35,416 nt of DNA, taken from contig JAUQQO010000056.1 in NCBI GenBank assembly GCA_030549795.1, positions 1-35,416 of the forward strand, written 5' to 3'. Under the pieces are notes generated by a model. The model was not told where the DNA came from, did no database searches, and saw only the letters and a list, made by a program, of their open reading frames with translations. The position numbers and the translations under genes are program-made. Positions 9,397 to 32,317 of this stretch are shown one piece after another; positions within the stretch are counted from its first letter, which is position 1; each line of letters begins with the position of its first letter. The DNA is from Pseudomonadota bacterium. GTDB lineage: Bacteria > Pseudomonadota > Alphaproteobacteria > Geminicoccales > Geminicoccaceae.

Positions 9397-10484
9397 CGCT
9401 CGGCCCCCTCGGCGCGCCGCGCCACCCGCCGCACGAGTTCGGCGCGCTGAGCGCGCATCGGCGCCGGCAGCTCGGCGAAGACATAGTCGATCATGTCGGT
9501 AGCCGGCGCAGGAGCGCGCGCGAGATAGGCTTCAACGGCACTCTCGACCTCGCGCGCACACCACGCCAAGAGCTGTTCTTCTTTGTCCTTGTCCCACAGA
9601 CCACGGGCGGTGAGAAAAGTCCGCAGCCGTGCGATCGGCTCTTCTTTCCAGTGCGCGCTTACTTCCGCATCGTCGCGGTAGCGCCGGGCGTCGTCGGCGG
9701 TGGTATGGTCGGAAAGACGGTAGGTGACGGCTTCGACGATCGCCGGCCCCTCGCCCGCGCGCGCCCGCTCGATCATCCGGCCGACCACCTCGCGCACGGC
9801 GATCACATCGTTGCCGTCCACCTGCACTCCCGGCATGCCGCAAGCGATCGCCTTTTGCGCCAGGGTGGCGGCCGCGGTCTGAGCCGAGCGCGGAACCGAA
9901 ATCGCCCACTGATTATTGTTGACGACGGTGACCATCGGCAGCCGCCACACCCCGGCCAGGTTCCAGGCCTCGTAGACGTCGCCCTTCGAGGTCGCCCCAT
10001 CGCCAAGCATACACACCGCCACGCGCGGCTCGCGGCGCAGCTTGAAAGCGGTCGCCACCCCCGCAGCGTGCGGCGCATGGGTTCCAACCGGAATGCACAC
10101 CGGAAAGTCTTCGCGCGGGCCGCTCCAATTGGAGCCGCGCTCGTCACCGCCCCAAAAGGTCAACAGTTCTTCGATGCGTACGCCGCGGTAGAGCATCGCC
10201 CCCTGCTCGCGGAAGGAGGGCAACAGCACGTCTTGAGGGCGCATCGCCGCCGCGGTGCCGACTGCTACCGCTTCTTGCCCGAGCGACGAGGCGACGGTGC
10301 CGAGCCGACCGGTACGCTGCAAATTGACCGCCTTGGTGTCGTAGGCGCGGGTGAGCACCATGGCGCGGTAGAGGCGCACGAGCTCCTCTCCGTCTTCGGC
10401 CCACGGTGGGAGAGGAGCGGCAAGCGTGCCATCGGCCCGCAGATATTGGATACGCTCGATGCGGAAGCTCGCGACCTCGACCAT
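9393..10484 (-). CDS. 2-oxoacid dehydrogenase E1 component, alpha subunit
   Basis: Alpha chain of E1, 363 residues, which binds thiamine diphosphate and decarboxylates the 2-oxoacid before passing the acyl group to E2 lipoamide. The ThDP motif runs from GDG (161-163) to NNN (189-191). SFREQGAMLYRG near 90 and YRLSDHTTADDARRYR near 265 (the mobile loop that holds the phosphorylation site in mitochondrial homologues) are also clear. It resembles the Gram-positive-type PdhA/BkdA rather than the single-chain AceE of enteric bacteria. The ATG at 10484 has GGAG upstream. First gene of the operon; see the promoter candidate just upstream. Confidence 0.92.
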   Translation of the reverse strand: MVEVASFRIERIQYLRADGTLAAPLPPWAEDGEELVRLYRAMVLTRAYDTKAVNLQRTGRLGTVASSLGQEAVAVGTAAAMRPQDVLLPSFREQGAMLYRGVRIEELLTFWGGDERGSNWSGPREDFPVCIPVGTHAPHAAGVATAFKLRREPRVAVCMLGDGATSKGDVYEAWNLAGVWRLPMVTVVNNNQWAISVPRSAQTAAATLAQKAIACGMPGVQVDGNDVIAVREVVGRMIERARAGEGPAIVEAVTYRLSDHTTADDARRYRDDAEVSAHWKEEPIARLRTFLTARGLWDKDKEEQLLAWCAREVESAVEAYLARAPAPATDMIDYVFAELPAPMRAQRAELVRRVARRAEGAER

Positions 10485-10511
10485 CCCGGCTCCGGGGGTT
10501 GAACACCCTTA

Positions 10512-10542
10512 AGAATAGCACCGGCTGCCCGGTGATTGTCGA
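10512..10542 (-). promoter_or_regulatory. Candidate promoter of the 2-oxoacid dehydrogenase operon
   Basis: Upstream of E1 alpha the minus strand reads TCGACA (10537-10542) and TATTCT (10512-10517), five of six and four of six matches to the vegetative consensus, but 19 bases apart, which is longer than ideal. The spacer contains an inverted repeat CACCGG-N4-CCGGTG (10519-10534) that could be a regulator site. The distance to the start codon is about 28 bases. This is a hand match in a short intergenic region and remains tentative. Confidence 0.35.
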
Positions 10543-10592
10543 GGTGGGAGGTTAATTCTTCGTTAGCCGAAAGCCGCGCCTGCGAGCAACGC

Positions 10593-10667
10593 TGGTAGCG
10601 GAGGAGGGATTCGAACCCCCGACCAAGGGATTATGATTCCCCTGCTCTACCGCTGAGCTACTCCGCC
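10593..10667 (-). tRNA. tRNA-Met (CAU), elongator type
   Basis: The minus strand folds as a full cloverleaf. The acceptor stem GGCGGAG pairs with CTCCGCT (the outermost pair is a G-U wobble), followed by discriminator A and an encoded CCA (10593-10595). The D arm is GCTC...GAGC, the anticodon stem GGGGA/TCCCT encloses the loop ATCATAA with anticodon CAT, and the T arm GGGGG-TTCGAAT-CCCTC is present. The sequence matches the alphaproteobacterial elongator methionine tRNA. It lacks the three G-C pairs next to the anticodon loop expected of the initiator, and tRNA-Ile(CAU) usually looks different in the acceptor stem. The gene starts only 21 bases after the mnmA stop on the same strand, so it may be transcribed by read-through from mnmA. 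Confidence 0.93.
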
Positions 10668-10688
10668 TTCAGGATCCACCCGCGTCAG

Positions 10689-11840
10689 CTAAGCAGAGGC
10701 GTGGGCGTCGTCAAGGCAGCTCGCAGCGCATACCGCCCACGGCTCGGTGGCGGCGATCCATCCGCCGCCTAAGAGCCGGCTCTCGCGCCATGCCACGCAG
10801 GCCTGACCGGGAGCGACCCCGGCCTGCGGCTCAACAAAGCGCACCCGCGCGGTGCCGTCTGCAGCGCACGTAATCTGAGCCGCTACCGCCGGTTCGTTGT
10901 AGCGGTGCTTGACCGCCACCACCTCCCCGACCTCGGGTGCAGCGAGCCAGGAACAGTCGGTAAGCCGTACCGCACCGACGAGCCCGGCACGCCGGGGACC
11001 CACCACGATCCGACTGCGCGCCGCATCGATGGCGGTAACGTAGAGGGGCACTTTAGCGGCGACCTTCAGCCCGCGCCGCTGGCCTACGGTAAAGCGCGCA
11101 ATACCCTCGTGCCGCCCCAGCACCCGCCCCGCTTGGTCGACGATCTCTCCCGGTGCGAGCGCCTCCGGCCGCAGCGCAGCGACCACGCGCACATGGTCGC
11201 GGTCGGGCGCGAAGCACAGGTCTTGGCTGTCGGGCTTGTCGGCGACGGGCAATCCGAGCTCGGCGGCAATCGCGCGCACTCGGCTCTTGGCGAGATGGCC
11301 GATCGGAAAGCGCACAAACGCGAGCTGTTCGGGTGAAAGGGTGAACAGAAAGTAGCTCTGATCGCGGGCGCGATCGAAGGCACGGTGCAATTCGAGGCCG
11401 TGCGGACCGCGCACCCTCTGGGCGTAGTGACCGGTGGCGAGCGCCTGCGCCCCGAGATCGCGTGCGAAGTCGAAGAGATCGCGGAACTTGATGCGCTCAT
11501 TGCAGCGCACGCAGGGCACCGGAGTGCGGCCAGCGGCGTACGAGTCCGCGAAATCCTCGATCACCGCCTTCCGAAAACGCTCTTCGAAATCGAGCACGTA
11601 ATGGGCAATCCCGAGCCGCTCGGCGACCGCGCGCGCATCCTCGACGTCGCGCCCGGCGCAGCAGCTCTTGCCGTCGCGGCGGATCGCGCGCTGGTCGTAA
11701 AGCTGCAGTGTCACGCCCACCACCTCGAAGCCCAGGCGGTGCAACAAGGCGGCAGCGACCGAACTGTCGACGCCGCCCGACATGGCGACTACCACCCGTG
11801 CGCCGGGAGGCAGGTCGAGGTCGGCCGAATGATCACGCAT
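10689..11840 (-). CDS. mnmA: tRNA-specific 2-thiouridylase MnmA
   Basis: Catalyses ATP-dependent 2-thiolation of the wobble uridine in tRNA-Lys, -Glu and -Gln. At 383 residues it is normal length. The PP-loop SGGVDSS is at 21-27; the two catalytic cysteines are Cys113 (RCNERIKF) and Cys209 (DSQDLCFAPD). The central and C-terminal beta-barrel domains are complete. The open frame runs far upstream through the ferredoxin and IscA region in a different frame; the real start is the ATG at 11840, which overlaps the ferredoxin stop by eight bases. It is the last protein gene of a cysE-desulfurase-iscA-ferredoxin-mnmA run, so the persulfide it uses probably comes from the desulfurase of the same operon. 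Confidence 0.95.
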   Translation of the reverse strand: MRDHSADLDLPPGARVVVAMSGGVDSSVAAALLHRLGFEVVGVTLQLYDQRAIRRDGKSCCAGRDVEDARAVAERLGIAHYVLDFEERFRKAVIEDFADSYAAGRTPVPCVRCNERIKFRDLFDFARDLGAQALATGHYAQRVRGPHGLELHRAFDRARDQSYFLFTLSPEQLAFVRFPIGHLAKSRVRAIAAELGLPVADKPDSQDLCFAPDRDHVRVVAALRPEALAPGEIVDQAGRVLGRHEGIARFTVGQRRGLKVAAKVPLYVTAIDAARSRIVVGPRRAGLVGAVRLTDCSWLAAPEVGEVVAVKHRYNEPAVAAQITCAADGTARVRFVEPQAGVAPGQACVAWRESRLLGGGWIAATEPWAVCAASCLDDAHASA

Positions 11841-26344: not shown

Positions 26345-26776
26345 CTAGGGAACGAGCAGTTCGCGAAGACGGCGACGCTCGGCGACGACATCGGCGAGGG
26401 TCACGCGATCGAGCACCGCCAAAAAGGCTTCGAGCGCTTCTTTGAGCACCGCGCGAAGCTCGCAGCCCGGCTCGAGCCGGCACCGCCCGCTCGACGGCTC
26501 GAAACATTCGACGAGGCGCAGATCGGTCTCGGTGATGCGCACCACCCGACCGAGGGAGATCCGCTCGGGCGCCGCTCCCAGCCGATAGCCTCCAGCACGG
26601 CCTCGCACCGAAGAAAGAAAGCCGTGACGCGCTAGGAGATGGGTGATCTTGCGGACGTGACCTTCGGGAATGTGGTACGTCTCGGCGATCTCCGCCACGG
26701 TCACGAGCTCGGGCTCGCGCACCGCAGCGAGAACGAGTGTGCGCAGCGCATAATCCGAGAGCTTGGAGAGCTGCAC
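26345..26776 (-). CDS. nsrR: Rrf2-family NO-sensing repressor, NsrR-like
   Basis: Winged-helix regulator of the Rrf2 family that binds an iron-sulfur cluster. The helix-turn-helix lies at about residues 25-55, followed by the wing (SVRGRAGGYRLG). The three cluster cysteines (CFEPSSGRCRLEPGC) are spaced C-x7-C-x5-C; numbered from the chosen start they are Cys91, Cys99 and Cys105, close to known NsrR proteins. The GTG start at 26776 is chosen because the protein then begins QLSKLSDYALR, matching family N-termini; an ATG at 26824 would add 16 charged residues. It is the last gene after norS-norY-senC-orf1-nirC, so it likely represses this operon and its own synthesis, relieved when NO damages the cluster. 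Confidence 0.8.
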   Translation of the reverse strand: MQLSKLSDYALRTLVLAAVREPELVTVAEIAETYHIPEGHVRKITHLLARHGFLSSVRGRAGGYRLGAAPERISLGRVVRITETDLRLVECFEPSSGRCRLEPGCELRAVLKEALEAFLAVLDRVTLADVVAERRRLRELLVP

Positions 26777-26866
26777 CGGCTGTCGATCCGATACCTGCCT
26801 GCGGCGCTCCGCATCGCGCGCCATCGCTGCTCTAAGTCTACCAGCGCCAGCGGCCAACGGGCAGGT

Positions 26867-27688
26867 CTAGGATGACGTCTGCTCCTTGCCTGTCGTCACC
26901 GGGGCCGGCGAAGCCGCACGTTCCGGCGAAGTAAGGATCAGAGCGTAGCCAGCTCCCAGGACGAGAGCGCCGGCGATCGCATTGCCGATCGTGACCCACA
27001 AGAGATTGTGGGCGATCCCGCCAACCCCCAAGCCTGGCACCACGCCGGAGAGGTAGGCAGTGGCGAAGATCGTCATGTTGGCTACCGAATGTTCGAAACC
27101 GCAAGCGATGAACGCGAACAAACACCAGAAGATGAGAATACAACGCGCTGCATCACTACGGGCGCGCTCGACGGTCCACAGAGCCAAGCAGACCAGCCAA
27201 TTGCATAGAATACCTCGCGCGAGCAAGGAAAGTGTACCGGATTCCGCTTTGTAGAGTGCGACGTCGCGCAGAAGACTGGCTGTCGGGGCCAGGATACGGC
27301 TACCTCCGATCACGAACAGTGCCGCGAGCACAACCGACCCCAAGAGGTTGGCGAGCCAGGTCCATACCCAAGCGAGCAACACGGTCCGTGGACCGATGCG
27401 CGCCTCGAGCCAGCCAATGGTCATCGACAGGGTATGTCCGGTAAAGAGTTCCGAGCCGGCGAAGACCACAAGCGTCAGCGCGATCCCGAAACTCGCCCCC
27501 ATAACGAGCGGTCGCAAAGAGGCGTCGAGTGGTTCGCCGACCGAAAGGATGAGCAAGATACCCGCCCCCACGTAAGCACCGGCAAAGACGCCAGCGAGCG
27601 TAAACCCGAGCGGATTGTCTCTCATCAACCGCGCCTTCGCTTCCGCTGCCTGCGCGAAACTGATGTACGTGTCGCGAAGATCTCGCAT
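26867..27688 (-). CDS. nirC: Nitrite channel NirC (formate/nitrite transporter family)
   Basis: Pentameric inner-membrane channel subunit of about 273 residues with six membrane helices. It reads closely like NirC: FAGSELFTGHT (77-86), a GILCNWLVCLALW segment (159-171), and CGFEHSVANMTIF (196-208), where His200 is the central pore histidine of the family. GGIAHNLLWVTIGN follows. The ATG at 27688 has GGGAG six bases before it; the open frame upstream in the same frame is not needed. It lies 17 bases after orf1 in the norS operon. It would move nitrite (and perhaps related anions) across the inner membrane, a sensible partner of NO metabolism. FocA-like formate use is less likely. Confidence 0.9.
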   Translation of the reverse strand: MRDLRDTYISFAQAAEAKARLMRDNPLGFTLAGVFAGAYVGAGILLILSVGEPLDASLRPLVMGASFGIALTLVVFAGSELFTGHTLSMTIGWLEARIGPRTVLLAWVWTWLANLLGSVVLAALFVIGGSRILAPTASLLRDVALYKAESGTLSLLARGILCNWLVCLALWTVERARSDAARCILIFWCLFAFIACGFEHSVANMTIFATAYLSGVVPGLGVGGIAHNLLWVTIGNAIAGALVLGAGYALILTSPERAASPAPVTTGKEQTSS

Positions 27689-27705
27689 TCGCCGCTCCCG
27701 AACGG

Positions 27706-28314
27706 TCAGCGCACGGATGCCTGCACCGCCGCTCGCACAGACCGTGAAGACGATGTAGCTTCTGGCTTCGCTGTCGATGAGGTCGAAAAATGCACCAGCC
27801 AAACCACAAAAGCCAAGACTGACAGAATGATTAGAGCAACACCGATTTCATCTTGGTCGTTGCGCGGATAGCGTAGGCACAAACGCTGCGGCAGCACGAG
27901 ATAAAGCCATCCCATGGCTGTCGCCATCGCGATCGCATGCACGGCCAGCATTTGCCGGGCGAGCCACGGGGTGGCGGGCAAGCTGGTCGCAAGAGCCGCC
28001 CCCGCAACGGGCAGGCTCACGAACTTAACGAGCGCGTAGTCGATCGAACCCACGCTCGTGTCGATCGCGCGCGGCACCATCCAAAAGGTCAGAATCGCTC
28101 CGGCGAGGACGATCCCGCTCGCTCCGCCCCGGTTCCAGGCCTGTATCGATGCCCCGCAACGTCCACCGCCAACCACAGCCCCCAGCGCGAGCAAGAGCGG
28201 GTACTCGACCAGGACATGGGTGACCAGGCGAGCTTCGAGGATCGGTCGAAGAAGGACGAACAGTGCCCCCCACCCGATGAAGGCAAGTGCGGCCCGATCC
28301 ATCGCCCCGATCAT
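27706..28314 (-). CDS. Membrane protein of the norSY-senC cluster (orf1)
   Basis: A 202-residue integral membrane protein with about five or six hydrophobic helices and a Ser/Thr-rich hydrophilic C-terminal tail. I know of no function for it. Its place right after senC, with a four-base stop/start overlap (ATGA), matches the uncharacterised orf1 of the norSY-senC-orf1 clusters of ammonia oxidisers. A few histidines lie near or in the helices (VTHVLVEYP, LAVHAIAMATAMGW) and could bind heme or metal, but that is a guess. It may assist assembly of the reductase. Confidence in the gene is good; its role is unknown. Confidence 0.75.
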   Translation of the reverse strand: MIGAMDRAALAFIGWGALFVLLRPILEARLVTHVLVEYPLLLALGAVVGGGRCGASIQAWNRGGASGIVLAGAILTFWMVPRAIDTSVGSIDYALVKFVSLPVAGAALATSLPATPWLARQMLAVHAIAMATAMGWLYLVLPQRLCLRYPRNDQDEIGVALIILSVLAFVVWLVHFSTSSTAKPEATSSSRSVRAAVQASVR

Positions 28315-28907
28315 CGCCGCAAGCCCCGCAGCGCCGGTTCGATCTCTTCGGGATCGAAAATGGCGCTCAGCCGTCCTTGGGCATCGACGAGGTGAAGGGC
28401 AGCGTTGTGCACGAATCCCCCTTCACCATCCGGGATGACCACTACGCCGAAGGTCTCGAGAAGGATTCGCAACTCGTTCGCGCGTTCGGGTACCGCGACG
28501 CGCCAGTGGGCGGGATCGGCGCCGTGCGCCTCGGCATAGGCCTGCAACGCCTTTTGATCGTCGCGCGCGGGATCAAAGCTCACCGAGAGGAGCTGCGGGA
28601 GCGGCTCACCGCCGCCGCGTCTGATCCTCTCTTGGATGCGCGCGAAACTGTCGCCGAGGGCGACGCACAGAGTGGGACAGCTCGAGTAGATGAATTCGAC
28701 CAGCATCGGTCTGCCCGGCTGCGGCAGGAAGAAGCGGTCGCCCGTGCTGTCGCGGAGCGCTACCGAAGGGACGGGTACGGGCGTACGGGCCACGGCCAGC
28801 CGCCGTGCAGTTTCCGTGGTGAAGGCAGCGAAGCCGTCGGTCTCGAGGGCGAGCACCGCGACCCCAGCAGCGAAGAGAAGGACGCTCGCGAATGCGGTGC
28901 GGATCAC
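28311..28907 (-). CDS. senC: SenC/Sco1-family copper chaperone
   Basis: Thioredoxin-fold protein of 198 residues that delivers copper to CuA or CuB sites of heme-copper enzymes. One N-terminal membrane anchor (residues 4-21) leaves the domain in the periplasm. The copper ligands are visible: Cys77 and Cys81 (SSCPTLC) and His167 (GFVHNAALHL). The start is a GTG at 28907, four bases after the norY stop. Its position between the CuA-containing oxidoreductase and orf1 suggests it matures NorS CuA. The N-terminal linker is short, as in other bacterial Sco proteins. Confidence 0.93.
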   Translation of the reverse strand: MIRTAFASVLLFAAGVAVLALETDGFAAFTTETARRLAVARTPVPVPSVALRDSTGDRFFLPQPGRPMLVEFIYSSCPTLCVALGDSFARIQERIRRGGGEPLPQLLSVSFDPARDDQKALQAYAEAHGADPAHWRVAVPERANELRILLETFGVVVIPDGEGGFVHNAALHLVDAQGRLSAIFDPEEIEPALRGLRR

Positions 28908-28911
28908 GGGC

Positions 28912-30372
28912 TCACCGTCCTACGCGTTCCTCTGGCACAGCGATTAGACCCACGATCGATTTCGCAAAGAACCCGCTTGCGCCCAAAAGCACGAGTGCCG
29001 CGAAGACGACTCCCGGAATGTCGTGGACGATCCAGGCTGCATCATGGACCGCCCACCGACGCGGTACGCTTGCCGCCCCGGCGACGAGGAAGCTGATCGC
29101 GAGGCCGGCACCGCCGATCAGATAGGAGGCGAAGAACAGACGATCGGAGGCAACGAATCCCCCGCTCCGACGGCCACCGGCGAGCCAGAGGAGGGTTCCC
29201 CAGATCATCGCGACCTGGCCTAGGATCAAATACATATGAAAATGACCAGGAACCCAGAGCGTATTGTGCATGACTTTGTTGACGGCAATAATCCCGTCGA
29301 TCCACGCCGGCATCACACCCGCTGTCCACCCGCCCACCCCGAGCACGAGGAGCGCTGCCGGGAGATCAAGGGTTGCGCCCGAGCGGTGCAGGTTGGTGAG
29401 CAGTCCGAAAGCAGTCACGGCGACCAGGGGCACCGCGCTGCCGTAAGAAAGGACCTGGCCGATGACGAGCGACCATGGCGGCATCACCGTGTCCTGCAAC
29501 AAATGGTGGGTGTAGACGGCCATCACGAAGACCAGGATCACGCTCCAAGCACCGGCGAAGAGCCGCGTCACTTTCCACGGTCGACCAGTGTAAAGCGGAA
29601 CGATTTCATACACTGCGATCACTGCCATATAAATCGTAGCATTGATAAACACGTGACCAAAGAAATAGATCATGTTTTTCGCCAACAGAGGATCGAGAAT
29701 CGTTCCAGCGACGAGAATATCGATAATAGACATCGTGATCGCCGCGGCACCGAAGACGAGACCTAGGGTATTGAAGACGGTAACGGCCGAGGCTGCGATC
29801 ACGGTAGGTGGCGGTAGCGGATCCTGCTGGCCGCCGAACAAAAGTGGCCAGCCGAGAGCTCGCGCGAGACTTCCCCACCGGCTACGCAACGCGCGCGCAC
29901 ACTCGAGGTGCACGAGTAGGAACGCCACGCCCACGAGCGCCAGTCCAACGAGATAGACGACCGCCGTTGCGGGCGACCACACTCCACCCGATCGGGCGGG
30001 CAAGGGATAAAGGAACGTCCAGGCCCCCGCGAAACCCCCAACGAAAATACTTCCCAAAATAACGACGACACCCGACAAGAACAACGCCATAAAGGCCCAA
30101 AACACGCGCTCGTCGAGGTCAACGTGCCGCCCGAGGAATGTCCACAACACAGCAAGGCCGGTAAGACCAGCGGTTCCGACCATACCAATACCATGCGCGG
30201 TCATGATCTCGTAAAAGAGCCTCGGATCCATTGACAGCAACTCGGCCTGGCTCGCTTTCATGACGAGGCCGAAGACCATCATGAGCAAAAAGACGAGGCC
30301 GCCCAAAAGCAGCGCTATGCGAGCAGGCGGGAGCTCCGGGACAGCGCGGACGGCGCTCAGGCGAGGTGTCAT
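28912..30372 (-). CDS. norY: Heme-copper nitric oxide reductase (sNOR type), catalytic subunit I
   Basis: Integral membrane enzyme of 486 residues with about 12 helices, predicted to reduce NO to N2O. All metal ligands of the superfamily are in place: low-spin heme His60 (TAHGIGM) and His379, high-spin heme His377 (PGHFHM), CuB His240, His289 and His290. The helix-VI motif is FFGHVFINATIYM: residue 244, four after the CuB His, is Asn, where oxygen-reducing oxidases have the cross-linked Tyr. This and the norS-norY-senC-orf1 order point to sNOR rather than a terminal oxidase. The ATG at 30372 has GGAGG five bases before it; an upstream in-frame start inside norS is not preferred. The name follows the ammonia-oxidiser clusters. 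Confidence 0.82.
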   Translation of the reverse strand: MTPRLSAVRAVPELPPARIALLLGGLVFLLMMVFGLVMKASQAELLSMDPRLFYEIMTAHGIGMVGTAGLTGLAVLWTFLGRHVDLDERVFWAFMALFLSGVVVILGSIFVGGFAGAWTFLYPLPARSGGVWSPATAVVYLVGLALVGVAFLLVHLECARALRSRWGSLARALGWPLLFGGQQDPLPPPTVIAASAVTVFNTLGLVFGAAAITMSIIDILVAGTILDPLLAKNMIYFFGHVFINATIYMAVIAVYEIVPLYTGRPWKVTRLFAGAWSVILVFVMAVYTHHLLQDTVMPPWSLVIGQVLSYGSAVPLVAVTAFGLLTNLHRSGATLDLPAALLVLGVGGWTAGVMPAWIDGIIAVNKVMHNTLWVPGHFHMYLILGQVAMIWGTLLWLAGGRRSGGFVASDRLFFASYLIGGAGLAISFLVAGAASVPRRWAVHDAAWIVHDIPGVVFAALVLLGASGFFAKSIVGLIAVPEERVGR

Positions 30373-30382
30373 CGTTGCCTCC

Positions 30383-30901
30383 CTAGCCCTTTGGGACGAC
30401 ATCGAGTTCAGCGATCATGCCGTGGTGGACGAGACCGCAATATTCGAGGCAGAGTATGCGGTAACGGCCGGGCTCGGCGAACGTCCAACTCACCTTATTC
30501 ACCCAGCCCGGCATGGCCTGGGTTTGGAACAACAAGCGCCCCTGGAGGTCGAAGACGCCGAATCCGTGGTTCACGTCCTCGCTCGTGGCGAGGAACACGA
30601 CAGGAGTATTTGCGGGGACCCGCGCCGGTTCGAGTTCCCACGCCCACAAGCGCGCGCGCACCGTGACCGAAACCACCTCCGGCCCCGTCGCCACTGCGTG
30701 CGGCCACGGGACGAGGGTGAGCAGGGCGATCGCCGCACCCATCACCAGCGAGCCCCAGAGCAGCCGGGCGCGCAGCTTCGCCGCCGCTTCGGCCGCGCTC
30801 CAGCCTGCCTCGCCGGGTTGGAGTTCCCGCAGCACCTTGGCGAACACGGCGGCGACCGCCGCAACCGCGGCCAGTGAGACCGCGAGCACCTGCTCCTGCA
30901 T
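30383..30901 (-). CDS. norS: sNOR subunit II with CuA centre
   Basis: Electron-entry subunit of the heme-copper enzyme, 172 residues. Two N-terminal helices (about 5-21 and 48-66) are followed by a periplasmic cupredoxin domain. The CuA ligands are complete: His112 (DVNHGFGV), Cys151, Cys155, His159 and Met162 (CLEYCGLVHHGM). It takes electrons from cytochrome c or a small copper protein and passes them to NorY. It is short for a CoxB, without cytochrome domain. The ATG at 30901 has GGGGGAGG directly upstream. First gene of the operon, with promoter and palindrome just before it; norY starts ten bases after its stop. Confidence 0.85.
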   Translation of the reverse strand: MQEQVLAVSLAAVAAVAAVFAKVLRELQPGEAGWSAAEAAAKLRARLLWGSLVMGAAIALLTLVPWPHAVATGPEVVSVTVRARLWAWELEPARVPANTPVVFLATSEDVNHGFGVFDLQGRLLFQTQAMPGWVNKVSWTFAEPGRYRILCLEYCGLVHHGMIAELDVVPKG

Positions 30902-30919
30902 GTGCCTCCCCCGCGGTTT

Positions 30920-30942
30920 AACATCGATTTAACATTGATGTT
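30920..30942 (-). promoter_or_regulatory. Palindromic operator candidate upstream of norS (possible NsrR site)
   Basis: A 23-base palindrome with outer arms AACATC and GATGTT; nine of the 11 base pairs around the central A are complementary. It lies 19-41 bases before the norS start and just downstream of the -10 candidate, so a bound protein would block transcription. The size (two 11-base half-sites) and the ATTT toward the centre are like NsrR operators; the left half matches the classical AAGATGCATTT half at eight of 11 positions. Assignment to the nsrR gene of this operon is inference. Confidence 0.55.
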
Positions 30943-30969
30943 TTTAGCGCGCGAAAGGGCCGGACGCAA
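30941..30969 (-). promoter_or_regulatory. Candidate promoter of the norS operon
   Basis: Minus-strand hexamers TTGCGT (30964-30969) and TAAAAA (30941-30946) are 17 bases apart, four of six matches each to the vegetative consensus. The -10 touches the palindromic operator candidate, placing the likely transcript start inside it. It lies inside the apparent 3' end of the frameshifted dctM frame but downstream of that gene's probable original stop. Confidence 0.4.
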
Positions 30970-32317
30970 TAGCCGCCCGGCCCGTTCGCCCCCCCCTTGC
31001 TAGCCGAAGAGCAGGCGCGGCAACCAGAGTGCCACTTCGGGGAAGAAGAAGACGATGGCGAGGCCGACGAGCTGCAGCAGCATGAAGTCGACCATGCCGC
31101 GGTAGATCCAGGCGGAGCTCCCACTTGGGGGCCACCGCCTTGAGATAGTAAGCGGCCATGGCTACCGGTGGCGAAAGGAAGGCGGTTTGCAGGTTAACAG
31201 CGACGAGCGTGCTGAACCACAATAGATCGATCTTCATCTCCTCGACCACCGGCAGGAAGATCGGCAAGAAGATGAAGATGATCGCCGGCCACTCCAGCGG
31301 CCAACCCAGGATGAAGATCACCACCATGAGCATGAGGATCAACGCCGTCGGCTCGAGCCCGAGGCCCAATAGCCATTCGGCGAGCATACTGCTCGTACCC
31401 AGGCGGGTGAACACGGCGCCGTAGATGTTCGAGGCGACGGCTAGGAACAGGACGAGGCTCGACGTCTCGAGTGTGTTCAAGCACGCGTCGCGTACTTTGC
31501 GCAGATCGAAGCGCCCGTAGGCGATCATGAGAACGACCGCACCGAACGCCCCCATCGCCGCGGCCTCGGTCGGAGTCGCAAGGCCGAAGAGGATCGAGCC
31601 GAGCGCCGCAAAGATCACCACCGCCAGCGGTACGACCCCCACGAAGAATTCCTTGACGACTTCGCGGTAGGAGCTCGCCCGCTCTTCAGGCGGCAACGGC
31701 GGCCCTAGCGACGGGTTGAGCTGGCAGCGGATGAGCGTGTAGGCGACGTAGAGCCCCGAGAGGATGAGGCCGGGGACAAGCGCGGCGGCGAACAGCTTGA
31801 TGATCGACACCCCGACGATCGGCCCCATGACCACGAGCATGACTGAAGGCGGAATGAGAATGCCGAGCGTACCGCCGGCGGCGATCGTCCCAGCGCTGAG
31901 CTTGGGGTCGTAACCCGCCTTCATCATCGCTGGTGCCGCCATCATGCCCATCACGGTCACCGAGGCGCCGATGATCCCGGTGGCGGTGGCGAAGATGGTG
32001 GCGGTAAGAAGCACACCTAAATAGAGCGAGCCCTTAACGGGCGCGAGGATGAGCCGGAAGGAGCGGAACAGCCGCTCCATGAGCCCCGCCTGCTCCATGA
32101 TATGGCCCATGAAGATGAAGAGCGGCACCGCGGCCAGCGTCTCCTCCTTCATGAGCCCGATCGTCTGGAACACCATCAAATAGAAAACGGTGTCGCCGAA
32201 CCCGATCAGCCCGAACACGATTGAGAGAATGATGAGCGTAAAGGCGATCGGAAAGCCGGCGAAGATCCCGGTGAGCAGAGCGCCCAACAGGACCAGACCA
32301 AGAAGCTCCTGGCTCAC
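30944..32317 (-). CDS. dctM: TRAP transporter large permease (DctM), frameshifted near the 3' end
   Basis: Large TRAP permease, hydrophobic throughout, with family motifs such as PLFIFMGHIMEQAGL, the TGIIGASVTVMGMMAAPAMM region, GGTLGILIPPSVML, LATPTEAAAMGAFGA and LQTAFLSPPVAMAAYYLKAVAPKWEL. The start is a GTG at 32317 overlapping the dctQ stop by four bases. After WEL (about 31112) the frame turns hydrophilic and Arg-rich. The neighbouring frame instead reads IYRGMVDFMLLQLVGLAIVF then a WLPRLLFG end, with stop at 31000-31002, the normal DctM C-terminus. One extra base near 31110-31118 explains this; a corrected gene would be 438 residues ending at 31000. It may be a sequence error or a real recent mutation. 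The as-read frame ends at 30944. Confidence 0.85.
   Translation of the reverse strand: MSQELLGLVLLGALLTGIFAGFPIAFTLIILSIVFGLIGFGDTVFYLMVFQTIGLMKEETLAAVPLFIFMGHIMEQAGLMERLFRSFRLILAPVKGSLYLGVLLTATIFATATGIIGASVTVMGMMAAPAMMKAGYDPKLSAGTIAAGGTLGILIPPSVMLVVMGPIVGVSIIKLFAAALVPGLILSGLYVAYTLIRCQLNPSLGPPLPPEERASSYREVVKEFFVGVVPLAVVIFAALGSILFGLATPTEAAAMGAFGAVVLMIAYGRFDLRKVRDACLNTLETSSLVLFLAVASNIYGAVFTRLGTSSMLAEWLLGLGLEPTALILMLMVVIFILGWPLEWPAIIFIFLPIFLPVVEEMKIDLLWFSTLVAVNLQTAFLSPPVAMAAYYLKAVAPKWELRLDLPRHGRLHAAAARRPRHRLLLPRSGTLVAAPALRLARGGRTGRAAIASGPFAR

Follow-up and report, generated by a model that had tools for sequence, protein, structure and literature searches.

The window analysed here, a 35,416-nucleotide stretch of DNA (positions 1 to 35,416 of contig JAUQQO010000056.1), contains an operon for an sNOR-type nitric oxide (NO) reductase that also includes genes for a NirC-type channel and an Rrf2-type regulator. 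All six genes lie on the minus strand in uninterrupted frames, in the order norS-norY-senC-orf1-nirC-Rrf2, with start codons picked among the in-frame candidates: norS (30383-30901; 172 amino acids (aa); CuA subunit II; Pfam COX2, 3.6e-07), norY (28912-30372; 486 aa; heme-copper subunit I; Pfam COX1, 1.9e-40), senC (28311-28907; 198 aa; GTG start; SCO1-SenC, PF02630, 1.4e-10), orf1 (27706-28314; 202 aa), nirC (26867-27688; 273 aa; Form_Nir_trans, PF01226, 1.2e-59) and the Rrf2 gene (26345-26776; 143 aa; GTG start; Rrf2, PF02082, 4e-35). The initial annotation of the window had proposed a six-gene minus-strand run with these identities, and the intact frames and Pfam matches agree with it, orf1 having only a DUF1404 match under the Pfam cut-off. 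Its description of the gene gaps as short or overlapping holds for the first four junctions, none of which exceeds 17 bp (norS-norY, 10 bp, where by eye GGAGG precedes the norY ATG; norY-senC, 4 bp; senC/orf1, an ATGA overlap; orf1-nirC, 17 bp), but not for the nirC-Rrf2 gap of 90 bp. The alphaproteobacterial origin that it assigned to the DNA is likewise upheld, as the same-genus genomes belong to the Geminicoccaceae. The interval that it outlined ended at 30969, 68 bp past the norS start, and thus includes a 23-bp candidate operator dyad (30920-30942, no strand assigned), found by an inverted-repeat scan, with 9-bp arms and a 5-bp spacer.

As judged from its sequence, NorY is an sNOR-type heme-copper subunit I. 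In a six-row alignment assembled without a peptide filter for the active-site motif, six NorY histidines are invariant (H70, H250, H299, H300, H387 and H389, numbered as in row 1), which correspond to the heme and CuB ligands of the ba3 oxidase. H250 is followed by N254 (H250-VFI-N254), such that an asparagine replaces the cross-linking tyrosine of the oxidases. NorY is 50% identical over 459 aa to the sNOR of Nitrosomonas halophila, and in a 42-row tree, built without ba3 or bNOR sequences, the 34 sNOR rows cluster together (support 95/97; kept together in 94% of bootstrap trees), separate from the aa3, cbb3 and eNOR-like rows, so the grouping with aa3 or cbb3 oxidases that would have spoken against the initial annotation was not seen. 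NorS consists of two N-terminal hydrophobic helices followed by a cupredoxin domain, in which we read H112, C151, C155, H159 and M162, presumably the CuA ligands. Its best solved match is a cytochrome c oxidase subunit 2 chain (1.8e-17), with the ba3-type chain 1ehk_B at 8.3e-17, and the NorY profile matched 20 Protein Data Bank (PDB) chains, all named cytochrome c oxidase and among them the BA3-type 1ehk; the paired matches to 1ehk and 1ehk_B fit a B-family descent. That the gene adjoining norY encodes a CuA-type subunit II is thus seen in both alignment and structure match, and it joins the asparagine, the Nitrosomonas identity and the tree in bearing out the sNOR identity. Table A4 of PMC8756737 gives asparagine at this position for sNOR and CuANOR, glutamine for eNOR and tyrosine for oxidases, and asparagine is also described as the CuANOR signature in section 15 of PMC3475470.

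Related loci were collected by a scan of named genomes with the peptides AKNMIYF or FGHVFINA, which returned 172 relatives, of which the best 80 were retained; the census is weighted towards Alphaproteobacteria, a bias inherited from the query. To these we added the window and six Geminicoccaceae loci, and removal of the duplicates L020, L021, L030 and L053 left 83 loci, 69 of them with enough flanking sequence to read gene order. Among 115 aligned subunit I rows, 87 have both the histidine and the asparagine (83 distinct loci and four duplicates), a count that is partly by construction because of the scan peptides; the remaining 28 comprise three with Q, two with Y, five with G and 18 that are unreadable at the position, one of these being a fragment of a split sNOR in L078.

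The dyad upstream of norS is probably an NsrR-type binding site, as its spacing and recurrence suggest. It lies 18 bp before the norS start, pairs at eight of nine arm positions and scores as a palindrome at p=0.02 (100 shuffles). Its own degenerate pattern has a single exact match in the 3.16-Mb genome; a second near-match, inside a molybdopterin-oxidoreductase-like frame (assigned by eye; weak narG match), was taken as chance. In two same-genus loci, L014 and L015, a comparable dyad precedes norS by 21 and 16 bp, respectively. The spacing equals that of the published NsrR consensus, gATGyAT-N5-ATrCATc, to which the available text of PMC1274295 notes an exception in Neisseria. Across the census we counted the frame AA-N5-AT-N5-AT-N5-TT, with at most one mismatch of eight and located 10-41 bp upstream of norS, against 200 shuffle sets. 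It occurs in 33 of the 47 sNOR loci that have an Rrf2 gene (shuffle mean 5.0, maximum 10), close relatives being counted repeatedly, and in 30 of the 47 when an arm symmetry of at least 6 is also required (mean 0.9, maximum 4). A general test for palindromes, in which no bases are fixed, gives a weaker result than the fixed frame, reaching p<=0.05 in 17 of the 47 loci with Rrf2 and 3 of the 30 without, the 17 including some other palindromes (a GC-rich hairpin after dctM in L014 and L015, a distant one in L074). Because the NsrR-spaced dyad recurs before norS, we consider it most likely that the operon is repressed by the Rrf2 protein and derepressed by NO, which makes the feedback control proposed in the initial annotation a likely reading. 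As a lead only, the operator arms tend to follow the Rrf2 recognition helix: several SRNH proteins accompany ATGTAT-like arms, PFNH accompanies AGGTAT or AGGCAT, SFDH accompanies ACGTAT or ACGCAT, and PEGH, the form in the window genus, accompanies ATCGAT or GCGAT. L033 and L037 run counter to this trend, as they combine SRNH with ACGTAT arms.

The Rrf2 protein itself appears to be of the NsrR/RirA type, and NO sensing is suggested by the dyad and by the target genes. It contains three cluster cysteines, C91, C99 and C105, which do not separate NsrR from RirA; their C-X7-C-X5-C spacing also fits RirA. The best solved match is NsrR 5n07 (1.8e-18), the Streptomyces coelicolor protein. Among NCBIfam models it scores 107.9 bits on NsrR (cut-off 182) and 122.1 bits on RirA (cut-off 193), and of eight sNOR-linked Rrf2 proteins scored in this way none reaches either cut-off. 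The initial annotation's reading of the regulator as an NO sensor therefore draws on the dyad and the context, the scores on both family models being below cut-off. The genome yielded three Rrf2 proteins: that of the operon, a SUF regulator above cut-off and one without the cysteine motif.

Gene order across the 69 loci shows the sNOR operon to be genuine, with a common gene content in an unusual order. All four of norS, norY, senC and orf1 could be called in 67 loci, a linkage beyond chance. The nirC gene directly follows orf1 in 37, lies elsewhere in eight and is missing from 24, and an Rrf2 gene lies within the locus in 44, while 25 have none. The combination of nirC directly after orf1 with an Rrf2 gene occurs in 29 loci, in 26 of which Rrf2 is divergent from norS; the 29 include L098, where Rrf2 lies some kilobases off and senC was uncalled. 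A gene content unique to the window can thus be rejected. The window alone has all six genes co-directional with Rrf2 last, so the suggestion that the arrangement was undescribed survives for the order and not for the gene set. In three same-genus loci (L014, L015 and L019) a co-directional Rrf2 gene comes after orf1 with no intact nirC, which is absent from L014 and L019 and reduced to a 59-residue remnant in L015 (7603-7776). L017, which belongs to a different genus of the family, has its Rrf2 gene in last position and lacks nirC, and L018 has a nirC with an internal stop (10171-11112) and a divergent Rrf2. Rrf2 thus occupies the last position repeatedly within the family, and nirC is easily lost. 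A nirC beside sNOR that is split over frames, interrupted or reduced is seen in L065 (9576-10581), L018 and L015. Two same-genus genomes, G002 and G003, gave no NorY match. Other heme-copper genes also occur near the module: a cbb3-like subunit I gene in 20 of the 83 distinct loci and likewise in Ruegeria pomeroyi (L136 1120-4505), and eNOR-like gene pairs a few kilobases from the sNOR operons of two loci, titled Burkholderiaceae and Ramlibacter (L095 554-2852; L098 1035-3323). On a plasmid of Thermomicrobium roseum (L137 4339-7261), genes for a CuA subunit, a COX1 protein with the asparagine and a formate/nitrite transporter (FNT) family channel stand in a row; no Rrf2 gene appears in the 11.2-kb gene table shown, which is incomplete per PLSDB.

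The accessory genes are consistent with assembly and nitrite-handling roles. SenC is a SCO1/SenC copper chaperone that probably loads CuA, and its gene recurs in sNOR clusters. The orf1 product is a helical membrane protein (AlphaFold model, predicted local distance difference test score 91.9) whose 57-row alignment yields DUF1404 in six rows; its model found no fold match in the PDB under E 0.001, the best Z score being 5.4, to a transporter, a result of little weight. The channel protein is, by sequence comparison, of the NirC type of the FNT family, and nitrite transport is predicted. In keeping with the initial annotation, its closest solved structure is a NirC, 4fc4 (1.7e-65), followed by 3tdo (8.8e-53), with FocA at 3e-13, and NirC is its best NCBIfam model at 263.8 bits, below the cut-off of 293. 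The initial annotation's assignment of the channel to nitrite uptake fared less well: the siroheme nitrite reductase domain (NIR_SIR, PF01077) has no match in the genome at E 0.001, which makes uptake for siroheme reduction unlikely, and nirC is missing or decayed in the three same-genus loci. Balancing or expelling nitrite would be a likelier role than feeding a cytoplasmic reductase. A second FNT gene lies on contig C44 of the genome. The available part of an FNT survey (PMC5525234) sought pfl, fdh, nirBD and asr as partners and is neutral on a link with sNOR.

That NorY is the only NO-reductase-type heme-copper enzyme of the genome can be rejected, as four subunit I genes were found: aa3-like, cbb3-like, eNOR-like (GHSSQQ, with Q at the cross-link position) and NorY. 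The eNOR-like gene is preceded by a small frame with a CuA domain, detected by the NosZ model only and without a Pfam hit at 1e-5, and is followed by UbiA/CtaB-type and Sco genes. It shares contig C36 with nirS, nirF-like, nirN-like and NirDL-like genes (L133 4891-8896 and 13095-19160; L134 135-4090), a cluster that is probably the denitrification core. Because nirS and an eNOR-like NO reductase occur together there, the sNOR of the window is probably an accessory enzyme of NO homeostasis and not part of that core. At E 0.001 NirK had no match in the genome and NosZ matched only the CuA domain of the small frame; narG hits were far below cut-off, in searches that did not extend to napA or cytochrome c nitrite reductase. 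G003 has nirS and the same CuA domain, yet no NorY match.

Upstream of norS lie TRAP transporter genes identified by Pfam (dctM and dctQ), and beyond them a gene that reads by eye as DctP-type; downstream of the Rrf2 gene is a small convergent frame with no Pfam match. A 16-bp inverted repeat between dctM and norS does not fold clearly better than its shuffles, 17 of 200 being as good, and a separate norS transcript start is therefore no more than possible. Near 31100-31150 the minus-strand dctM frame diverges from its L014 relative close to the C-terminal end, a change that is either real or an assembly error.

The reading that we prefer, an NO-inducible sNOR operon, has to be weighed against other accounts of the enzyme, the regulator and the gene set. 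The enzyme may be mainly a high-affinity O2 reductase of B-family descent that tolerates NO, with NsrR-type control that would bring it into use when NO inhibits other oxidases. The oxidase names of all 20 matched PDB chains and the cbb3-like neighbour in 20 of the 83 loci, as in R. pomeroyi, favor this account, as does PMC6967387, which argues that the Nitrosomonas sNOR may be a high-affinity oxidase given its low-O2 induction in N. europaea. For the preferred reading, PMC6967387 also cites indirect evidence of NO reduction by sNOR in Nitrococcus mobilis. We consider an oxidase unlikely, as the cross-link position has no tyrosine, many loci have the NsrR-type dyad before the operon, and the genome already contains aa3-like and cbb3-like oxidases. 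The Rrf2 protein could instead be a RirA-like regulator of iron or Fe-S status that is a mere neighbour of the operon or controls it according to iron supply; its higher RirA score, its cysteine spacing and its standing as the sole NsrR/RirA-like member of the three Rrf2 proteins point in this direction. This account appears doubtful to us, since the nearest solved relative is NsrR, the dyad is spaced like an NsrR site and turns up more often in sNOR loci that have an Rrf2 gene, and a single exact site in the genome is unlike a global iron regulon. That nirC and the Rrf2 gene came to lie here by chance or through recent shuffling, functionally unrelated to sNOR, would fit the absent or decayed nirC of the three same-genus loci and an Rrf2 gene that is divergent, upstream or downstream according to locus and absent from 25. 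The position of nirC right after orf1 in 37 loci, the presence of Rrf2 in 44, and the CuA-COX1-FNT run in T. roseum, a member of a different phylum, make coincidence highly improbable.

Several observations weigh against an NO-inducible sNOR operon. With regard to the enzyme, they are the low-O2 induction in N. europaea and the lack of ba3 and bNOR rows in the tree. With regard to control, the arms of the window dyad are ATCGAT or ATCAAT, as compared to ATGyAT in the consensus; the dyad frame was picked after the upstream regions had been inspected; 14 of the 47 loci with Rrf2 do not contain it, and 6 of the 30 loci without Rrf2 do (shuffle mean 1.5, maximum 5; with arm symmetry of at least 6, five of the 30, mean 0.2, maximum 2). 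The RirA model outscores NsrR, and a scan for consensus promoters and terminators found no sigma-70-like promoter or terminator at the operon. With these points taken into account, we still regard the whole reading, an NO-inducible sNOR operon under an NsrR-type Rrf2 repressor and accessory to the core on C36, as rather probable. Gene identity and order, the asparagine, the recurrence of the dyad and the gene content of the genome are observed, and on them we build the following scheme for catalysis, electron donor, repression, NO response and direction of nitrite movement. The CuA center of NorS would receive electrons from periplasmic carriers and hand them on to NorY, which would reduce two NO to nitrous oxide (N2O). 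SenC would load the copper, and the orf1 product may aid assembly or be a third subunit. The Fe-S repressor would bind the 23-bp dyad before norS until damage to its cluster by NO frees the operon, such that enzyme, channel and repressor would rise jointly and shut off once NO is gone. NirC would carry nitrite through the membrane, where balancing or expelling it is a likelier purpose than supplying a cytoplasmic reductase, and the sNOR would provide accessory NO homeostasis beside the nitrite-to-N2O pathway.

The first four genes have a known counterpart in the norSY-senC-orf1 cluster of ammonia-oxidising bacteria, with which the initial annotation had equated them; that cluster, named in Table 1 of PMC4940428, has the identical four genes in the identical order. 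The window differs in adding a co-directional nirC and Rrf2 gene, whereas two Nitrosomonas loci (L089 and L096) have a weaker FNT match on the opposite strand and no Rrf2 gene found in the locus. The qCuANOR type II of Bacillus azotoformans and Geobacillus (PMC3475470, section 15) likewise has a two-helix CuA subunit and a short subunit I with the asparagine, and its cluster also includes SenC and a protein of four to five helices. Its hosts are Gram-positive, the Geobacillus clusters are linked to an enzyme reported to produce heme a, and in B. azotoformans, unlike the window, nirC genes lie elsewhere in the genome and nsrR or Rrf2 goes unmentioned in the available text. The megaplasmid of R. 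pomeroyi DSS-3 has all six gene types and, by eye, a dyad upstream of norS; in contrast to the window, its Rrf2 gene is divergent, its subunit I is annotated as a cbb3-type oxidase and a cytochrome c gene follows. The NsrR regulons of PMC1274295 resemble the window in their Rrf2 repressor, 5-bp-spacer dyad and NO-handling targets; the available text of this 2005 survey reports NsrR in one alphaproteobacterium only and does not include nirC, senC or ‘cytochrome c oxidase’. In the literature searched (including the accessible parts of PMC10356946, PMC9041414 and PMC10472526), from which subscription papers were mostly absent, we came across no account of an sNOR operon that includes nirC and Rrf2. 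The novelty lies in the operator evidence and in the second NO-reductase-type enzyme of the genome, the gene set itself not being new.

Tentatively, sNOR, FNT channel and Rrf2 regulator may form a conserved module of NO and nitrite homeostasis across phyla (Pseudomonadota, a Nitrospinota metagenome-assembled genome, and Thermomicrobiota without a listed Rrf2), with operator arms that tend to track the recognition helix; here it would stand beside a nirS/eNOR-like unit, giving one cell two B-family-type NO reductases with different jobs. An NsrR-type dyad before norS in 33 of 47 Rrf2-bearing loci constitutes regulatory evidence for an NO role of a debated enzyme, and the occurrence of the module in a cultured strain, R. 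pomeroyi DSS-3, makes that role directly testable. Because sNOR is annotated as an oxidase, as in the cbb3-type label of R. pomeroyi and in KEGG (according to the available text of PMC11388526), N2O-forming capacity can escape surveys.

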